A stretch of 64,000 nt of DNA from assembly GCF_011397635.1 (NCBI RefSeq), contig NC_064760.1:25431356-25495355 (forward strand). The letters are read 5' to 3'. Source of the DNA: Epinephelus fuscoguttatus (taxonomy: Eukaryota; Chordata; Actinopteri; Perciformes; Serranidae). A program made the translations under genes and the position numbers. A model generated the notes under the pieces. The model did not search any database. It was not told where the DNA came from and was given only the letters and a program-made list of their open reading frames with translations. Below are positions 1-31,549 of the stretch, piece after piece (positions within the stretch are counted from its first letter, which is position 1; each line of letters starts with the position of its first letter).

Positions 1-616
1 GGCTGGTGAAAGAGAGGGGATTCTCTGACAGATCCAGGTGAGCCAGGTTTTCTACTTTGTGAGCCCAGCTGCAGTCAATCTCTACCAGGCCAGAACGAAC
101 AAGAACAAGAGATTTTAGGGAGCCAAACAACCAGCGGTGGAGCTTCTGGAAGGAGGGCTGGAGGAGAGAGGGGTCCACTGTCACATCCTCCAGCACAAGG
201 GCTTTAACTGTAGATGCTTCCAGAAACTCTGGATGCCCGGAAGGCTGGACAACTTCCACAGTGGATGAAATTATGCTGATTGTCTTCAGATTTAACAGGG
301 ACAGAAACGGGAGGACTGCACTGATGAATGACGAGGAAATTCTGACGTTATTAAAAATGAGCTTATCTATCTGGATGAACTGGAAAATAGTCGGATCCAA
401 ATTTAGATCCATCTCAGATACATCCAGTTTGCCATCTCTCAGCTCCAGCTCTACAGCATTGAAACAATTCAGAAGGCTTTGTGGGTAGTGGATAACCATA
501 ACATTGCACACACAACGAGTCAAATCCTCACTTGAAATGCAAAGAGAAGCATCTGCTCCTGAAGTGACAGTGAGCCCCAAAAGCAGGAGCAGAATCAGTC
601 TCTGATTCAGTGTCAT
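1..616 (-). CDS. cd14: CD14-like leucine-rich-repeat pattern-recognition receptor, N-terminal part (partial, runs off left edge)
   Basis: One reading frame stays open from an ATG at 616-614 to the window edge (205 codons), so the C-terminus is missing. It starts with a hydrophobic signal peptide (residues about 6-20, a leucine run), followed by a mature N-terminus with the pattern C-x5-DLTRCVCN (C26, C34, C36). The acidic VELELRDGKLDV segment follows, then leucine-rich segments ending in LAHLDLSENPL near residue 195. Mammalian CD14 has the same order: an N-terminal DDEDFRCVCN block, AVEVEI, repeated LxxLxLxx strands and LTSLDLSDNP. In mammals CD14 binds LPS and passes it to TLR4/MD-2. Function here is inferred from family only. 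The coding part appears to be one uninterrupted exon after a 5' UTR intron, similar to the simple mammalian CD14 structure. Alternative: another small LRR protein; the CVCN block and the LDLSENP spacing argue for CD14. Confidence 0.72.
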   Translation of the reverse strand, partial: MTLNQRLILLLLLGLTVTSGADASLCISSEDLTRCVCNVMVIHYPQSLLNCFNAVELELRDGKLDVSEMDLNLDPTIFQFIQIDKLIFNNVRISSSFISAVLPFLSLLNLKTISIISSTVEVVQPSGHPEFLEASTVKALVLEDVTVDPSLLQPSFQKLHRWLFGSLKSLVLVRSGLVEIDCSWAHKVENLAHLDLSENPLSFTS

Positions 617-1101
617 GGTAGCCGGGAGGACTGTCAGCAACACCTGAAAACGTCAAGATCCAGAGAGGACAGAATATTATATTTCATGGTTTTAGCAGAA
701 AACTGAAGAATGAAAGGCATCCTAGTAACTTCAGAAAGATATTAAATTTAAAGTTGAAACTCTGGAACCTAAAACACTGCTTATATACCAGATTTTTGGT
801 TCATTTCTGACATTGTTAAGGAATAAAACAAAAACAGAACATTTTATATTAATAATATTTTCTTAAATTGTCCATATTGTTTCAATTTCCAAGTTCAAAA
901 TTGTTTAAAACTCCCTGTTTTGTCAATGATGCCATACGTGTCAAGCAGTGTTAAAAGCTGCTCAAAATGTCTGCTTATCTAAATGGAAAACTTCATAATA
1001 TACACGTTCTATAATCTCCAAAACCTTAATCTATAACTTGGCCTAAAAATGCACCAAAAACACTAATTCAACAACATATGTCTTAAAGTTAAACACTTAC
1101 C
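617..1101 (-). other. cd14: 5' UTR intron and non-coding first exon of the CD14-like gene
   Basis: On the minus strand a consensus donor, GGAGG|GTAAGTG, ends an upstream exon at 1101. An acceptor, TTTTCAG|GTG, begins the next exon at 643, leaving 27 nt of leader before the ATG at 616. The intron (644-1100) is AT-rich and contains no recognisable gene. The start of the first exon is not defined by sequence; it probably lies within about 100 nt above 1101. The reading is inferred from splice signals only. Confidence 0.5.
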
Positions 1102-1195
1102 CTCCGTTCAGCTCAGCTTAGCTGTTGGTAATGACCATCAACTGTTGACTCCCTTCAGTGTCTTTATTCTCACCTGACTTCTGATTTTCTGCTAC

Positions 1196-1250
1196 AGATG
1201 TTCCCACTTCCTTTCCTCTTACTCACACCTCTAAAAGAAAGAGGAAGGCC
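1196..1250. promoter_or_regulatory. Cluster of PU.1/ETS-type GGAA motifs upstream of the CD14-like gene
   Basis: The minus strand at 1201-1221 reads as two overlapping purine-rich GGAA cores (AAGAGGAAAGGAAGTGGGAA). The plus strand has another, AAAGAGGAAGG, at 1237-1248. PU.1 and other ETS factors recognise AAAGAGGAAGTG-like sites and drive TATA-less myeloid promoters, including mammalian CD14. The cluster lies about 100 bp above the presumed first exon. This is a motif-level inference. Confidence 0.35.
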
Positions 1251-1865
1251 CATGTTCTAGGACATATCTACTTCCTAAAAGCAGTTAATTAACTGTACCT
1301 GTCTGATCTTTGTGTGCCATCAACACAATGGTTTTCTTCTTCGCTGAACAGATCATGGTAATTTCATTTAATTGATTTGATGATAGGGTGCAGCAGTCCG
1401 ATCTGACCAGGCTGACGGCGAAGGCAGACAAGGTCAACTCATCCACTTTTAATGGAACTCCAGGTGCTCCCTTTTAGTAGCAGATATAGGTATCCTGAGA
1501 TCAGAACTAGCCAAGCTGAAATGTCATTTGTTCCTGTGGCAATTCAACCCAACAAACTGCTGTAGGTCGCTGAGCATTATGGGAGGTTGTGTTAACTTAT
1601 AGATGCAGATTGTGATCATGGACTTTCGTTGCTCTGTTCTAGCTGTGTTTACATTATGTTTATGTAGTTTACCGTGCTGTAACATTGCCCCTTTGGGGAC
1701 ATTCAAGTTTTCTAAGTCTAAGTCTGTCTCCCCTTAATGATAATGCTAGAAAATGTATGGGGAAAGAGGGAGGGATAGGTAGTTGTAAAACCATGTACAG
1801 AGGAGAATAAAAGCTCAAGGACTAAAGGATGATTAAATAAATGAGCTATTGAAACAGCTGCCATA

Positions 1866-2627
1866 AAGGGACAGTTCTCCCCCACATATCAAATACATAT
1901 TCTTCCTTTTACTTGTAGTGCTATTTATCAGTCTAGATTGTTTTGGTGCAAGTTGCAGAGTGTTGGAGGTATCGGCTGTAGAGATGTCTGCTTTGTTTTG
2001 AATATAATGGAACTAGGTGGCACTCGGCTTTTGGTGCTCAAAGTGCCAAACTATACATTTGTCACTCAAGATAATCCACAGACCTTGTTGTGAGCAGTTA
2101 AATGTAGAACTATTCTCTTTCTACCTAACTACACCCACCAACTGTATCACAGAAGGAAGTGTGCATCTATTATTAGCTCACCTAGCACCCTCTGAGCTAG
2201 CTAACGTTGCAGCTCAGCCGAGGATGGCATTGATGTTTGTATGGTGCATAATCAAAAGCGAGTGCTTCCTGTCCATGAGTAGATGCAGGTTCCTGTTGCA
2301 TGTTGATACATTTGGCAGGTGTAGTTCAGTCGAAGGAATCTGGTTCCTACATAACTACTCACAACAAGGTATGTGGATTATCTTGAATAACCGGGTCATG
2401 GTTTCTGCAAAGAGACATTGTTGTTGAGTTTTTCGAATGTATTTTTTCATGCTTTGAGCACCACAAGCTGAGTGCCATCTGGCTCCCTTATATTCAAGAC
2501 AAAGCAGACATCTCTACATCCAATATCTCAAACACTCAGCAACTCACACCAAAACAGTCTAGACCAAAAAAGCACTACAGGTAAGAGGAAAAATATGTAT
2601 TTTTGTTTTGGTGGTGAAATGTCCCTT
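1866..2627. mobile_element. Non-autonomous fold-back DNA transposon, Tc1/mariner-type ends
   Basis: The two ends are long imperfect inverted repeats. The left end begins AAGGGACAGTT and the right end finishes AAATGTCCCTT. Homology continues inward for about 190 bp: the left arm ATGTCTGCTTTGTTTTGAAT is mirrored as ATTCAAGACAAAGCAGACAT at 2492-2511. A second inner pair matches the ATAATCCACAGACCTTGTTG block at 2071-2090 with 2366-2386. The element is flanked by TA on both sides (1864-1865 and 2628-2629), the target-site duplication of Tc1/mariner elements. It has no intact transposase frame. The 136-codon frame inside it is not recognisable and spans the repeat arms. Confidence 0.8.
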
Positions 2628-2861
2628 TAAAACCAGAAACAGATGGCAGAAAATCCAGGACTGAGCAGCATCAGTGCATCTAATCAGGTTTATTTAGGCC
2701 TTATTCGTCTATAGCTTCAACAATTATTTGACGTAACAGGACCAGGTGTTGAACATATATGTATAATAAGGCAAACAGTGTTGTTAGGAAAACTTTATTT
2801 AGCCTTCTTAACACAAACATCTTCATAGAAAAGTCACATCCTCCAACGTTCACAGGCTTTA

Positions 2862-3374
2862 AACGGTCGGTTCACCCAAATTACAAAAGGCAAAACAAAA
2901 TACAATATTTTCTCACTAAAGTCATAAATATCTTGCCACAGTTTGAGTTTTATTTAACTGAGGCTTCTCTGTGGTGCTCACAGCTTTGACAAACACTTTA
3001 AAAAATGTAAACAGTCAGACTCTTTCCAGAAACAATGTCCTTTGTCACTCTGAATAATCAACAGACTTCACTGTCAACAGTTTTTGTTGGGACTACTTTC
3101 TATCAGAGAAATAGTTCGAATGAAAACTGTTCCCACTGTGGTCTGTGGATTATCAGAGTCACACAGGACATTGACTCTGCAAAGAGTCTGGCTGGTTATA
3201 TTTTTAAATATTTGTCAAAGCTGTGAGCACCACAAACAAACCTCCATTTACTTCCATTGTTGTGGGTTGGGAGCAGAGTAATCAGAGACGCTATCTTCAA
3301 ACCTGAACAACTTCCATGTCTGTAGACTGGTAGAGGTGAGGGAGTATTTATGTAATTTGGGTGAACCGACCCTT
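2862..3374. mobile_element. Second non-autonomous fold-back DNA transposon
   Basis: The terminal inverted repeats read AACGGTCGGTTCACCCAAATT on the left (2862-2882) and, in reverse complement, AAGGGTCGGTTCACCCAAATT on the right. Inner arms also pair: TGGTGCTCACAGCTTTGACAAA at 2972-2993 matches TTTGTCAAAGCTGTGAGCACCA on the far side. The left flank is TA; the right flank is degraded. The centre has the same ATAATCnACAGAC motif as the element at 1866-2627, so both belong to related families. Confidence 0.78.
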
Positions 3375-3688
3375 AAAGCTTTCTTTCAAGACAAATACAT
3401 TTAACACACATACCTTAATACACTGTAGTTGATGAATCTAGTTTAAAATGTCAATGAGAACACCCCAAGATTGTCTGTTATGAAACAAAAAATTAAAAGC
3501 AATAAACTGTAACAGGCCTCTACTGATTTGATTTAAAGCAGCCAGCAAAATGGTGAAAATCAAAAGATTACATGGAAGTCCACTAACTGATCGGGAGTCA
3601 CAGCAATTACCAACTGTCTGTACCCAGCTGAAAATACCTAGTTTCTCATTTCTGCAAAGCTTGATGAAAGCAAACATCCAGTGCTTTA

Positions 3689-6600
3689 TTAGTTTGTATC
3701 ATCTGGAAAAAAAAGAAAAACACAACATGTGAGGATGTGTGGCAACCAACAAAAGCTTGTCAATAAATATCCAAACTATGAATCCACTAAAAAAAATCTA
3801 TACTGAAGCACTTACCATCAAGGCTGAGGGTCTTCTGCATCAGCCTGGGTGCAAGCATCACGCGGCGAGGATACAGTGAGGCTAAAATGAACAGGGGAAA
3901 AAAAAAAAGTAATTAGAGTAATCATCCATGACAGCCTTGCATGGAAAGCTACAGATGCACCTTTGAATCAAAAGTCCTTTAATCTGTGTCTTTTACCTCT
4001 CTGACAGTCAGGGCGGCCGCGCATGCGGGTGCCCTCGATGACAGTGCCAAACTCGTCCACACACCAGCAGTAGCCGGTGGCGTGCCAGCACTGCATGGGC
4101 TTGTAGCGGCCCTGCTCGTCACACTGGGGCTTGTAGGAACCGATCTTGGAGGGTCCGGGTGCTGCCTCCTGCTGGCATTTGGTCAGAGGTGCAGAGGCTG
4201 AGGGAAAGAGCGGAGAACACTGGGATGTTAATGGGTTGTTCAGTGTTAATAACTGGTGACTGTGGCAAACTAAAAGTAGGAGTGATTTTGGGGATACACA
4301 CTTATTTGCTTTCTTGCCGAGAGTTAGATGAGAAGATCGATACCAGTCTATCTGTTCATTTCATGCAAAGCTACAGCCGCTTAGCTTAACATAGCAAAGG
4401 TAGTGAAGGTAACAAAATGCACCCACACACGTTAAAGCTCACTTTGCTTACTGGTGCACCGAAAGCGCTACATATTAATAAGAGTGGTATCGAATGAGAG
4501 CAGTAATAATCTTTTCATGTAACTCTTTTCCAGAGAGTAAAAAAAACGCATTTCCCCAAACTGTTCCTTCAAAGCAAGGCCAAATCTTTGTTTCAAGTTA
4601 CACCCTGTCCTGTGTTGCAAATAACACTTGTGATAAGAGAGATGGTCTCACCCTTTGCAAGACATAACAACCTCTTTTATAAACGCTCCTAAAACTCGGT
4701 AACAGTAGCAAAAACAATATCCTGAAGGCAACTGTTAACCTTTCTGCACCAAAATAATAAGAGCTATGGTAAAAGTTATCTTAAACAAGCCTCTGGTATG
4801 CATCTGGTAAAATCCTGATGGCCAGACTCTATTTTTGCTCAGATCTATCTTACATCAAGTGACATATTAGAGCCATGGTCCTTACTCCCTTTACTGGGAG
4901 TGTAAGAAAACCAGCAGCCACTGTCACAGCCCCAGTCTGGATTAAAACATCAGCCACACTAGGCTTGGGTGGTATCAAGGTATTATAGTAAACCAGGGTA
5001 TTCAGAAATCATGCAAGTATGATTTTCAATACAGTTAAAAATGCACATGCTCCTCTCTCTGTTAAACTGATACAGAGATGCTGTATTAGGCGATGTGCTG
5101 TAATGCACGACACTCGCCACCAGAGGTCAGTCTCTACTGGTGGAACAGGCGGCTGAGCTGAGAGATGGCAGTTTCAAGTGGTGGGGATAACGTTACAGGA
5201 CTACTTTAAAGAAAAATGCCTTTGCCCCCGTTTGGAAATATTGCAGCAACTGCCATTCTACAACCACCATCCGCATTTCATCTCTGTTCAGCCGATATGT
5301 CGGTATCTGCCACAGGAGCAAGTGTCATTGGGTCCTCTGGCAAAAAGGACCCTTATTTTCTATCTATTCATACTTCTATGGGCCCTAAGTATTAAAATCC
5401 AAAGACTTGTCTCAGATGACTTATTGTTTATTAGAAACACAGCATTGTAGGCTAGACGATGACATCATGCTACAATGACTGCTATTACCAGTAGCTCACC
5501 CAAGCTTGAACAACACACTCCAGTGTAAAGGAAAGAAAGTTGCACTAACTTGGTTCAGCTGTTGGGGGAGCAGGCGTCTTCTGGGCCATCTGGAAGATCA
5601 GCCAGTAACGCATCCAGGACTCAAAGCTCTGCACAATACAAAATGTAAAAAAAAAAAAAAAAAATCACTGACTAATACTATTTATTTATTTCTTAGTTTC
5701 AGTAGTGTCCATGCAAATGCGCGTGAGCCCTTACCTTCCAGTCGGTCTCATTCACGTGCTGCTTCATGCCCTGCAGGTTGGCCAGGAAGGTCTCGTTGAA
5801 CTCCGGCAGCTGAGAGTCCTCCTGCGAACATAACCAGAGCTTAGTGACAACACAACATCAGTAATGAGAGGACAAACAAGATGCGGAGTGCAGCATACCT
5901 GAAGGAGCTCCTTCAGCTGTGCCTCCACGCTGACAACAGCCTCCTTCAGTTTCTGATGAGAGGGAACAGAGGAGTCAAATAATTCAGTATATTAAATTCA
6001 TGTTGTAATGTATTTATTTTTTATAAGCTATTTAGGAAAATATTGTAAGTCTGAAACAAGTTTGTTGCCACAGAGAGCTAAAAGATTTTTATTCCCAGGA
6101 GGCAGGTGTGAACCTACAGTCAGGGGTGTCTTTTTGGGCTTGGTGTTGGCATCTGCGTCGAAGTCCATCAGCAGGGGAAGACTGTTCATGGGCATGTGCA
6201 TCCTCGCTGGGGCCACGGCTGTAAACAAAAAAGCATATTAATTAGCAAAGAAAAACAAAACAAAGAGAAATGGCATTGAAAAAAGTGTAAAAAAGTGCAA
6301 AATGAATTTGGGAAGAGAATCTGTTCACTTTTACTAACAGCTAATAAAAAAGAACGAGTGCTTTTCATCACAGCAACTCCGGATGTGTTGAATACTGGTT
6401 AATATACAAAATCATGGTAACTCTATGTGACACTTCTTGGAATGATAAGATCATGACAAGAACAGCAAAGAGCCGATTCTTCCCCCTATGAGTCACCAGC
6501 AAAACTTTCATTTCTCTGTCCTCAGCTCAAGTTCCTTAAAGCAAACTCTCACTTCCCTGTCCACCTCCTTATTCCTACAGCCTCCTCCTCCTCCTCCTCC

Positions 6601-8189
6601 TCGTCTGACGAAGACTATTACTCATTAATGACACATCCCTACTGGGACCATCCTGCTTGATCATTTTGGACTGTAATGCCTCTTTTTACCCTGGGATGAG
6701 CGGGTCAGCTGTCGGCCCAGTTTGTCTGAGTTCCTCTGCAGCGAGTGGATCTGCTGCTTCTGGTTAAACACCATGTAGGCGGTGAAGACCTGGCTGGCCA
6801 GCAGCAGACATGCTAGGGTGGTCAGGCCTGCGATCTTCAAGGCACGGCTGTTGGAGCCCCTGAGAGAGAGAAATGAAAATGATAAGCGAGGATAAAGCAG
6901 CAGGGGAGAAGGGATTACATGACACACAAAACCAAAGTCTGACTAAAATTGAGATGTTAAATTATCCAAAAACTTCCAAGGTATTAAATTTGTCTGGGGG
7001 GGATTTCCTCAAGTGCTGTTTGGGCATTTTTAAAGCAGATGTGAAATGAGCTTGGCACACAAAAAAGCCCCATATGTAAACAACAACTTTGGTATTAGAC
7101 ATATTCAAAAAAAACAAACAAAAACAAATAATCATCTCTTCAAAGTTATGATAATGTTACTTAAAGTCCTGAAGACAAAAAAATACAGTCAGCCTTTTCT
7201 CATCTGCTCATAATCAGCCAATGGAATGCGAGCGTCACTTGTTACCAGGCAGACAACTTCTCCTGACGTTATGAGGAAGTACATCCAGCAACTATTTAGA
7301 GCTTATTTAAGAGGTATAAACAAGTGTAAAACTGTATTTTTCATCATAAATAGGTCAAAACTGTACACTCACTTATTTCATAAATAGTTGCTACAAGTGA
7401 AACTACAAAACAAAGTCCATATTGCCTACTGTGTGTAAACAATGTCATGAAACAATATCTAATTGGTTTTTTTTTTAGTAAAATATTAGTCTGTTAGCTC
7501 TAATTTATCTTAATAGACTATTATTAAAATGAAATAGGCCTGCAGAAAAATAAAACAGTCAGTGATGTGAGGTAAACAACACACCTTATTTATCACTCAC
7601 ATTTTTTTTCATACATTAAAAACATGTTAAGTTGTAACACTCATGAATTATATATATTTTTATGCTGAAATGTTGAACGCTGGCTAATATTTTTCTTTGT
7701 GGTAAATTATTAACCAATGGTATGACAGCATCAATAGTTGCTAGGCAGATGTCTTCTGTAAAAGAGTCCAACTGAGGGTTGCTGAAGATGCTTTGAAATA
7801 CATTTAATGCAAAAACAGTGTGTTAACATGTAAAATATTGGAAAGCACTTATCAGATGCAAAGAAAACATTAGACTTCAGTATCATATCATTAAGGAATA
7901 ACAAAATATATAAGCACAATTAAAAAAAAAAAAAAAGAGTTATTTCTGTACATTAGCTACTAAACTTCACTAAAAGTTTTAATTGTGATTATTTTGTGCT
8001 CATTTTAATGAGCAGAGAGAGCAGAGATTAGCAATTGGAGCCACCACTGAGCAAACAGCTGTTGTTTTGAGTATAAATTCATAAGACAGGTTCCTCTCAC
8101 CCTCTGGGTGCTGCAGGAAGAACAAGGACTTCTTCGCTGCCCGACAGACTCCCAGTGGCCAGGGGAGCACCTTCTGCAGGTTCGGCCAT
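3689..8189 (-). CDS. cd74: CD74, MHC class II invariant chain (Ii), long form with thyroglobulin domain
   Basis: Nine coding exons join in frame to 286 aa: 8101-8189, 6690-6859, 6118-6218, 5899-5952, 5735-5821, 5550-5628, 3997-4197, 3816-3881 and 3689-3702, all with GT-AG junctions. Human long CD74 (p41) is 296 aa. Domains are a short cytosolic tail (1-35, with EEVLVL as a possible leucine sorting signal), one signal-anchor helix (about 36-60), a methionine-rich CLIP-like segment (87-105), a trimerisation region (about 121-193) with two N-glycosylation sites (N147, N162) and a thyroglobulin type-1 domain (201-258, six cysteines). CD74 is a type II membrane chaperone. It occupies the class II peptide groove in the ER and targets the complex to endosomes. 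The start ATG at 8189-8187 is the first in-frame ATG after the promoter-like elements that gives a membrane-anchor protein; an upstream in-frame ATG at 8384 would extend the tail across the promoter motifs and is unlikely. Teleosts often have two cd74 copies; I cannot tell which this is. Confidence 0.93.
3997..4197 (-). CDS. cd74: cd74 thyroglobulin type-1 cassette exon
   Basis: The 201-nt exon encodes about 67 residues with the complete type-1 pattern: cysteines at 201, 219, 230, 237, 239 and 258, including [16 protein letters not shown] and the closing RGRPDC. In mammals this domain is alternatively spliced (p41 versus p33) and inhibits cathepsin L-like proteases. Entry and exit phases are both 1 and the length is divisible by three, so skipping the exon keeps the frame and would give a form of about 219 aa. 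Confidence 0.88.
4210..5540. other. cd74 intron between the trimerisation exon and the thyroglobulin exon; probable transposon remnant
   Basis: No exon-like frame is present. The stretch around 4965-5040 (GGTGGTATCAAGGTATTATAG and GGGTATTCAGAAATCAT) has the GGTATnAnGGTATT wording of degenerate non-autonomous fish DNA transposons, but no intact inverted ends are visible. The rest is unremarkable AT-rich intron. Confidence 0.3.
6118..6218 (-). CDS. cd74: cd74 exon carrying the CLIP-like segment
   Basis: The exon encodes residues 87-120. Its core, [13 protein letters not shown], is the fish counterpart of the class II-associated invariant-chain peptide (human core MRMATPLLM), with methionine or hydrophobic residues at spacings suitable for the class II pockets. 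This segment blocks the peptide groove until endosomal proteases and the DM exchange factor act, in systems where that is known. The following run (DANTKPKK) is charged and presumably flexible. Confidence 0.85.
6573..6603. repeat. (CCT)n simple repeat in a cd74 intron
   Basis: About nine CCT/TCC units in a row lie in the intron before the CLIP exon. The tract is pure near 6580-6602 and pyrimidine-rich on both sides. No function is implied. Confidence 0.7.
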
Positions 8190-11631: not shown

Positions 11632-27384
<15,753 letters not shown>

Positions 27385-28109
27385 CGTCTCGCGCCACACC
27401 GCTCCGCCCCACCAGCCCAGCAACACGGGGACAGTCTCTCTCGGTGTGGGTAAAAAACAGCAGGCAGAGATTATTCACGACAAGGTCAGTCTTGTTATGG
27501 AGCTAAACACAAACGGTGTTAAAGTAGCAGCTGCAGCAGCTACTGGAGAAAGAAATGAGACGGTCTCACGTTGGCTCTCCCTCATATTGCAGCGCCGCTT
27601 ATGTCACCATGGCAGAGAAATAGGGGGCCTTGGACCGCTGGTACACACTTATGCCTCAGAGGGAGGGCTGGCAGGCCGAGTCACTGGTGGAGAAAGATGA
27701 TGGAAGACTCCATCACCTGTCCATCATGTGAACCCGCCAACCATGTCCTACGTAGATTTCTCTCCACTCGTTTGATTGGAGAACGATCTCTTGAGAAAAG
27801 CAATGTCGCGCAGGTCATCTCAGCAGCACCATTCCCTCGGGATCCAATCTCCTCACCTAGAAAAACAGCAAGACAGAAGAAAATGATGTCAAAATCTGAA
27901 AGCGCAGCAGCCGCTCCTATAGAACAAACGACATATTGCATTCTTTTGTTGTGTGGGTTTAGCTGTGTGTGGGAGACGTGTGTATACTGTCAGTGCCAAC
28001 ACTCCAAAAGTTCACTCCAAAGTAGTCCTTGCATTCACCTACACAAAGTAAGAGCTGCCAATTTCCCCCTACACACACGCTCCTAACCCCTGTGTGCGCA
28101 AACATAAAC

Positions 28110-30249: not shown

Positions 30250-31120
30250 TCATGACATATCACTCAAAACAGAAAGGTATACCATCAGAGGGGCTGTGCT
30301 GAACTGGTTCAAAAGCTGTATAGGAATCTGGCAACAATTTTTGCAGATAGGTGCAGTATAATGTCTTAAATTATTTGTTGTGTACATAAATGACATATAT
30401 AATGTATAAAGAATATTAAAAATTGTCTTATTTGCAGATGACACCAGTATTTCCTGTTCAGGGGAAAACACCAGCAGCTTTTTGGAGGTAGTCAAAACAG
30501 AAATGCAATTCAAAATGTGGTTTGACAAAAAGAAATCTCATGAAATTTGAAACAAAACTTAACTCATGTTTGGAAATCTTAAACACACCATTACAAGTTA
30601 TGATTGACGATGTTATCATAGAAAGAGTACATGAATATACATTTCTGGGTGTGATGTTGGACCACAAAATCTGCTGGAACCTTCATATAAAATATGCACG
30701 AGCAAAGTTGGCAAGGAGCACTCCAGTTCTGGGAAAAACAAGAAACGTTATAGATCATAAAGCATTGTACACTCTGTATTGTTCACATGATTTACTATAT
30801 TTGAAGTACTGTGTGGAGGTATGGGGCAGCACCTACAAAGCACCCTACAGTCATTATGAATACTACAAAAAGAGAGCCACAAGGACAGAACACAATGGTG
30901 GATATTGGGAAACATTAACAGCCTGTTTTTAAAGTCCATTGAAATTAAGGGATCTGGAGGAATTTAAGATTGCACAAATTACGTGCAAAGCAGGAAACAA
31001 TTCACTTCCTGGTAATATAAAGAAAATGTCCTTGGACAGAGACGGGAGCTATAACTTAGAGGAAAATTTGATTTGTGGTTTAAATCAAGAAAAGTATGTG
31101 CATATCAGTTTGTGGGGTGA
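30250..31120 (+). mobile_element. LINE reverse-transcriptase relic (L2/CR1-like), copy 1
   Basis: Several plus-strand frames give reverse-transcriptase motifs in the right order: LFADDTSIS (the catalytic F/YADD box; 30430-30456), HEYTFLGVMLDHKICWNLHI (30631-30690), TLYCSHDLLYLKYCVEVWGS (30771-30830), then, after frameshifts, AGNNSLPGNIKK and DRDGSYNL (30990-31060). These are the thumb and C-terminal blocks of fish L2/CR1-type LINEs. The frame is broken several times, so the copy is inactive. Confidence 0.8.
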
Positions 31121-31549
31121 TCTCCACTGCCTCTGCTGGTGCACTGCTGCATTTCTTGGCGCTCCACCGTCACCTGTACATCACTGGAATGCTGTAAAAC
31201 TATCACAGCGTGAATGTGTATCATGTCACAGAACAGTTCCCCACTCACTAAAACATCACTCAATAGCACTAGTAAGCTGCCACAGGGGTATTGATGATAG
31301 ATTTTAGCACTAGCAGCAGAATCATATCACACCATGCCATATTCATTTCCTCTTTGGAAACTTTCTTTTGTTCAAGTTAATAATTATGAGCAAGTTCTCT
31401 TTGCCACTTTTGTTTTTCACAAAAGAGCTTGTCTCATATTAGGCACAACAGTGAGCCGTGATTTGTTACTTTGATCATCTGCTCAACAAGCTTACATGTG
31501 ATTTTGCATTTTGCATATTGTATATTGATAAAGGAGAATAATTTATTGA

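Follow-up and report, generated by a model that had tools for sequence, protein, structure and literature searches.

The open reading frame at the left edge of the window, by which we mean the whole 64,000-nucleotide stretch analyzed here (C9:25431356-25495355), is with high confidence the fish orthologue of CD14. The explanation that best accounts for the data overall, and one that we hold nearly as firmly, is a CD14 orthologue that would act as a transmembrane lipid co-receptor, likelier through TLR2/TLR1 than through TLR4. The cysteine pattern, the database match of residues 30-317, a CD14 profile and synteny with slc35a4 all support the CD14 interpretation proposed in the first-pass annotation of this DNA. 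We consider the identity decided by synteny: slc35a4 lies 12.3 kb from cd14, and the two genes face each other as they do in human and anole.

The cd14 frame and its protein

Within the window, the frame runs on the minus strand from position 616 down to 2, comprising 205 codons with the ATG at 614-616, and exits at the left edge. The remaining coding sequence was read from two 10-kb stretches of the same genome to the left of the window, yielding a complete CDS in one uninterrupted exon to the stop codon (L002:8569-9972:-, equivalent to C9:25430568-25431971). A separate protein search of the genome (1,046,998,120 bases in 26 contigs) recovered the identical frame with zero internal stops. Among the 55 matches of this search, in which the best candidates are scored, there was a single cd14 copy and no second one; the runner-up after cd14 itself was tlr2 on C3 (41.8 bits, 25% identity). 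The genome is probably that of a teleost, to judge by its 24 large contigs (C9 measures 46.8 Mb) and the genes it contains. The features of the gene that lie in the window are as follows.

Window 1..616, minus strand: 5′ (N-terminal) 205 codons of cd14, an open frame whose CDS extends leftward to C9:25430568
Window 17..37, minus strand: LDLSENP repeat segment, residues 194-200 (LDLSDNP in human and mouse CD14)
Window 464..541, minus strand: N-terminal cap with cysteines 26, 35, 37 and 51, spaced C-x8-C-x-C-x13-C
Window 548..616, minus strand: signal peptide, residues 1-23, a signal-peptide-like start MTLNQRLILLLLLGLTVTSGADA recognized by hydropathy, with the cleavage site placed by eye
Window 644..1100, minus strand: putative 5′-UTR intron of cd14, predicted from the splice-site letters GTAAGT...TTTTCAG, 27 bases upstream of the ATG
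Window 1101..1200, minus strand: putative non-coding first exon of cd14, likewise predicted from the letters of the sequence, its upstream limit a guess

The signal peptide, RCVCN, VELEL and LDLSENP are all present in the order given by the first-pass annotation. The mammalian spacing that it also claimed stands in part: the N-cap and its four cysteines align, however, the last gap is x13 in the fish and x14 in human CD14 (C-x8-C-x-C-x14-C). Extension to the left, which had been expected to give about 350-400 aa in total, instead gave an intact frame of 467 aa. The added length relative to mammalian CD14 comes from further repeats retained at the C-terminal end and from an LRR C-terminal cap (CDC...CLC), both of which are missing from the mammalian crystal chains (310-312 aa). 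Its leucine-rich repeats score 54.4 bits with Pfam LRR_8 (cut-off 27), and it carries six N-glycosylation sequons. A Pfam scan of all 467 aa found no TIR domain, C-terminal or otherwise, and a C-terminal TIR was the observation that the first-pass annotation had named as counting against CD14; we rejected a Toll-like receptor identity on this ground. An AlphaFold model of the full protein, run without an alignment, was poor (mean pLDDT 42.9), and a Foldseek search with this weak model put TLR2 at the top and human CD14 (4glp) in tenth place.

A C-terminal GPI or transmembrane signal had been suggested as a further check, and an anchor-like hydrophobic tail is present. It consists of 21 hydrophobic residues (442-462) with a mean hydropathy of 2.09; KRHLC comes next, and the frame ends 5 residues past the stretch. 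The tail looks better suited to a transmembrane anchor than to a GPI signal, because the basic KRHLC following the hydrophobic residues is what a stop-transfer segment would have. For chicken CD14, the portion of PMC7157566 available to us (citing Wu et al. 2009) describes a transmembrane protein that has one additional LRR and in which 8 cysteines are conserved. That the fish protein is instead GPI-anchored as in mammals is somewhat doubtful: small residues (TAGT, SSP) do precede the hydrophobic stretch, however, both the stop-transfer-like KRHLC and the transmembrane chicken protein speak against it.

Kinship with CD14 and with TLR2

When the 205 residues encoded in the window were compared with 177,635 distinct PDB sequences, mouse CD14 (E 1.1e-4) and human CD14 (5.7e-4) were the top two matches. 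CD180 (RP105) followed both at E 1.3e-3; it resembles the fish protein in having an LRR ectodomain without a TIR, but its weak match is confined to one repeat region and scores below CD14. With residues 30-317 as the query, mouse CD14 was the best PDB match in one co-linear stretch (57.6 bits, E 1.4e-14), ahead of human TLR2 (48.0 and 47.8 bits) and human CD14 (47.3 bits). A small leucine-rich proteoglycan identity was rejected, since decorin reached only 22 bits (E ~9e-4) against 57.6 for CD14 and the cap spacing is of the CD14 type, as opposed to the N-terminal cysteine cluster of SLRPs. The order changes with the full 467 aa, where TLR2 chains lead at 70.9 bits and CD14 chains take ranks six and seven (58.1 and 47.5 bits). 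TLR2's lead comes mostly from residues 163-404, and the CD14 crystal chains stop at 310-312 residues without the C-terminal part that resembles TLR2. With human CD14 as the query the top non-CD14 match is also TLR2, and we therefore regard affinity to TLR2 as a property of CD14.

Pairwise and profile comparisons gave a similar picture. By blastp, the fish protein is 28% identical to mouse CD14 over 304 columns and 25% identical to human CD14 over 330, with scores of 72.8 and 67.8 bits, respectively, against 47.8 bits for the human TLR2 segment (27% over 271 columns). A profile of human and mouse CD14, a comparison that the first-pass annotation had proposed, scored 55.2 bits in its best stretch of the fish protein; among 500 shuffles of residues 24-330 the best score was 3.7 bits, and just 37 of them gave any reported match.

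In an alignment of the fish, human and mouse proteins, all eight human CD14 cysteines (6, 15, 17, 32, 168, 198, 222 and 253) were matched by fish cysteines (26, 35, 37, 51, 182, 212, 237 and 264, respectively). The eight cysteines of CD14 pair as four disulphides, and the fish protein has equivalents of the human pairs 168-198 and 222-253. Six of the eight were also aligned in the ten rows from which the tree was built, with fish 212 and 237 falling one column off the mammalian residues. The aligned TLR2 segment, which leaves the N-cap outside, has three of the eight in common with the fish protein and none at fish 237. A regular expression for the N-cap cysteines was applied to 32 ORFs (200 aa or longer) taken from 30 LRR loci in the genome, cd14 included, and cd14 alone matched. 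The fish protein shares with mammalian CD14 (4glp human, 1wwl mouse) a leader, a four-cysteine N-cap, an LRR solenoid and the lack of a TIR domain, and differs in its low identity (25-28%), its length, its transmembrane-like tail and a pocket rim that is 8 residues shorter. The shortened segment lies beside human CD14 57-64, a region that we take to be part of the LPS-binding rim and important for LPS binding.

A tree had also been proposed as a check. Ours had ten rows: CD14 from this fish, human and mouse, to which the CD14 rows were limited; human and mouse TLR2 segments; four TLRs of the TLR1/TLR2 kind from this genome (L011, L012, L014 and L018); and, as the outgroup, the TLR7-9-like L013, named by eye. 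Fish, human and mouse CD14 grouped together in all three builds, with supports of 83/86 (341 columns), 66/56 (159 columns) and 75/83 (257 columns, L013 omitted). None of these supports was starred, and long branches were flagged. In AU tests, placement of fish CD14 with TLR2 was not rejected (p 0.168 and 0.29), nor was placement with L014 and L018 (p 0.055). As far as the sequences go, then, the tree leans toward CD14 in every build, however, with supports that are not strong and a TLR2 placement still standing it does not settle the position.

These results bear on a different origin for the gene, in which it would have arisen independently from a fish TLR2/TLR1-type receptor, would lack the TIR and would serve as a decoy or soluble receptor. 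TLR2 is the full-length top match, the LRR C-terminal cap is of the TLR type, the C-terminal repeats and cap are shared with TLR2 (human, mouse and that of this fish), and the AU test tolerates the placement. We nevertheless consider such an origin very improbable and set it aside, as the full-length score is outweighed by the CD14-type N-cap, a cysteine pattern that includes position 237, the closest match of residues 30-317 (to mouse CD14) and the slc35a4 neighbor oriented as in human and anole. The fish's own tlr2 lies at a different locus, on C3. Any CD14 would be expected to show affinity to TLR2, as the human protein does, and chicken CD14 is reported to have a transmembrane end and an additional repeat in the accessible text of PMC7157566.

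Chromosomal neighborhood

The gene order on C9 is csf1r-like(+), an HMG-box gene(-), slc35a4(+), a kinesin-like gene(-), cd14(-), cd74(-), ndst1-like(-), rbm22(+) and a guanylate-cyclase-like gene (HNOB domain). The table for anole and human in the part of PMC2764143 that we could consult gives Sra1(-), Apbb3(-), Slc35a4(+), Cd14(-), Tmco6(+), Ndufa2(-). In the fish, slc35a4(+) and cd14(-) are likewise convergent, 12.3 kb apart, in the orientation seen in human and anole. The slc35a4 frame (C9:25417290-25418267) scores 146.7 bits with Nuc_sug_transp and is preceded by an upstream ORF (L003:4523-4750, DUF4535, 38.9 bits) that ends ~0.54 kb before the main ORF. We presume that the gene is A4 and not another SLC35A, a name that rests on the slc35a4 sequence and on this upstream ORF. 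Between slc35a4 and cd14 the fish has a minus-strand gene encoding a kinesin-motor-like coiled-coil protein (L002:6000-6700 and L003:6895-9794), with KIF15 as its closest PDB match (E 3.5e-4). No kinesin-like gene occupies this position in the table for human and anole, in the portion of PMC2764143 available.

On the other side of cd14, the window holds the following.

Window 1864..2629, no strand assigned: fold-back (inverted-repeat) element between cd14 and cd74, with arms of 63, 136 and 40 nt that are 81-90% complementary
Window 2859..3377, no strand assigned: second, nested fold-back element, with outer arms of 30 nt that are 90% complementary
Window 3818..6849, minus strand: cd74 (invariant chain, thyroglobulin-domain form), its 3′ UTR running on to lower coordinates
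Window 23750..27426, minus strand: 5′ coding exons of an ndst1-like gene with heparan sulfate N-deacetylase domains, the next neighbor identified

The first-pass annotation had placed cd74 about 3 kb from cd14 on the same strand, against about 10 Mb that it gave for the human genes, and the fish distance and strand were borne out. A thyroglobulin type-1 exon at window 4004-4186 scores 64.4 bits with Pfam and is 50% identical to human CD74; FESWM is found at 5563-5625 (E 0.005), and 6649-6849 weakly matches the transmembrane exon (E 4.2). The last cd74 coding exon ends at window 3818, leaving ~3.2 kb between the two coding regions on their common strand. Two nested fold-back elements occupy much of this gap.

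We take human SLC35A4 and CD14 to lie at 5q31.3, and CSF1R, HMGXB3, CD74, NDST1 and RBM22 at 5q32-33. The fish segment therefore mixes pieces of one ancestral linkage group, and a rearrangement inside it is the best reading of the adjacency of cd14 and cd74. The HMG-box gene was read by eye as hmgxb3. The csf1r-like gene, a class III receptor kinase gene on the plus strand at 25.382-25.390 Mb, lies ~40 kb from cd14; its kinase exon matches CSF1R and KIT almost equally (67.2 and 66.9 bits). Three myeloid or antigen-handling genes, csf1r-like, cd14 and cd74, fall inside ~55 kb (C9:25382000-25438200). A query with the human RPS14 sequence found only two chance matches in the window (E 4.7), and ORFs at window 30522-31307 resemble, by eye, remnants of a LINE reverse transcriptase.

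Partner genes, proposed function and the literature

Candidate partners of CD14 were sought in the same genome. Present are tlr2 (L011) on C3, the tlr1-like L018 (C9:24.99 Mb) and L014, of the TLR1 kind. A TIR family search gave 24 matches. None of the 24 was a TLR4-type TIR: with a human TLR4 TIR as the query, no match exceeded 41% identity over at least 100 columns, and the best long match (40.6% over 143 columns) was tlr2 itself. A human TLR2 TIR used as the control query gave 65.0% (L050) and 57.5% (L052). MD-2 was not detected in a search for the ML-domain family (MD-2, NPC2), whose two matches were exons of a single C14 gene that reads by eye as NPC2; this absence is weak because MD-2 exons are short and the search goes exon by exon. 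The LBP/BPI family search gave six matches, one of them above the cut-off.

TLR2 and TLR1 are known partners of mammalian CD14. From its sequence, fish CD14 would probably be a membrane-bound lipid co-receptor of TLRs. We propose a leucine-rich solenoid at the surface of myeloid cells, possibly also shed, held by a transmembrane segment instead of a GPI anchor. Its N-terminal pocket would receive amphipathic bacterial molecules (lipopeptides and perhaps LPS) from an LBP/BPI-type protein, and it would pass them to a signaling TLR, here TLR2/TLR1. The shorter rim beside human 57-64 may, judging from the alignment, give a different ligand preference. TLR2/TLR1 is a likelier receiver than TLR4 because tlr2 and a tlr1-like gene were found while a TLR4-type TIR and MD-2 went undetected; we name TLR2/TLR1 as the partner, rather than another receptor, only tentatively.

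Mammalian CD14 also has non-TLR roles, and the fish orthologue could in principle serve in apoptotic-cell or phospholipid uptake or in NFAT-type signaling. TLR4 was not found in the genome, as such a role would allow, however, tlr2 and tlr1-like genes are present and the sequence nowhere selects such a role, so we consider it unlikely. A mammal-like LPS receptor for TLR4/MD-2 is a distinctly poorer prospect. It has the mammalian function and the LBP/BPI-family match in its favor, but there is no TLR4-type TIR among the 24 TIR matches and no MD-2 among the ML-domain matches, and the pocket rim is 8 residues shorter. Returning to the TLR2/TLR1 co-receptor, we speculate, at something short of even confidence, that CD14 outlived TLR4 and MD-2 in this lineage as a TLR4-independent transmembrane lipid carrier for TLR2/TLR1, perhaps the ancestral state, in a compact myeloid neighborhood, and that mammals later tied CD14 to LPS and TLR4.

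The first-pass annotation remarked that CD14 is commonly called missing from teleosts, and seven papers, in the portions available to us, do state its absence in zebrafish, fish or non-amniotes. 'All fish genomes lack' MD2 and CD14 according to PMC6036275; fish in general are said to be without CD14 (PMC6043800, PMC9533005); CD14 and MD-2 are given no orthologues outside amniotes (PMC5826337); and zebrafish is described as being without CD14 (PMC12469797, PMC12689318) or without an annotated CD14 (PMC12047837). The available text of PMC6362898, PMC5869700, PMC10178140, PMC5343853, PMC6411690 and PMC10426278 holds nothing on a fish CD14 gene. We recognized no description of a teleost CD14 in our literature search, though an automatic gene annotation may exist. 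In the accessible parts of papers from 2018-2025, the supposed absence is used to explain the resistance of fish to LPS, and also the need to add mammalian CD14 to zebrafish Tlr4 and its MD-2. A fish CD14 that is intact and syntenic makes 'fish lack CD14' untrue of fish in general, dates CD14 to the ancestor that ray-finned fish and tetrapods had in common, and provides a candidate co-receptor that is now open to experiment; this genome is the sole fish compared. If TLR4 and MD-2 are truly missing here, CD14 has a TLR4-independent function that has been kept under selection.

Several other TIR loci were observed in this genome. The tlr1-like gene (C9:24993334-24994731; L018, L051) lies on the same chromosome as cd14, ~0.44 Mb away. 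The L052 match, at C23:6231432-6231812, is a second tlr2-like TIR with one stop codon within the match, and is possibly a decayed copy. Four tandem genes at C4:36863589-36875374 (L054-L057) have open frames of 413-436 aa with an N-terminal TIR followed by hydrophobic stretches; L057, the sole one of the four that was scanned, scores 76.3 bits with TIR_2.
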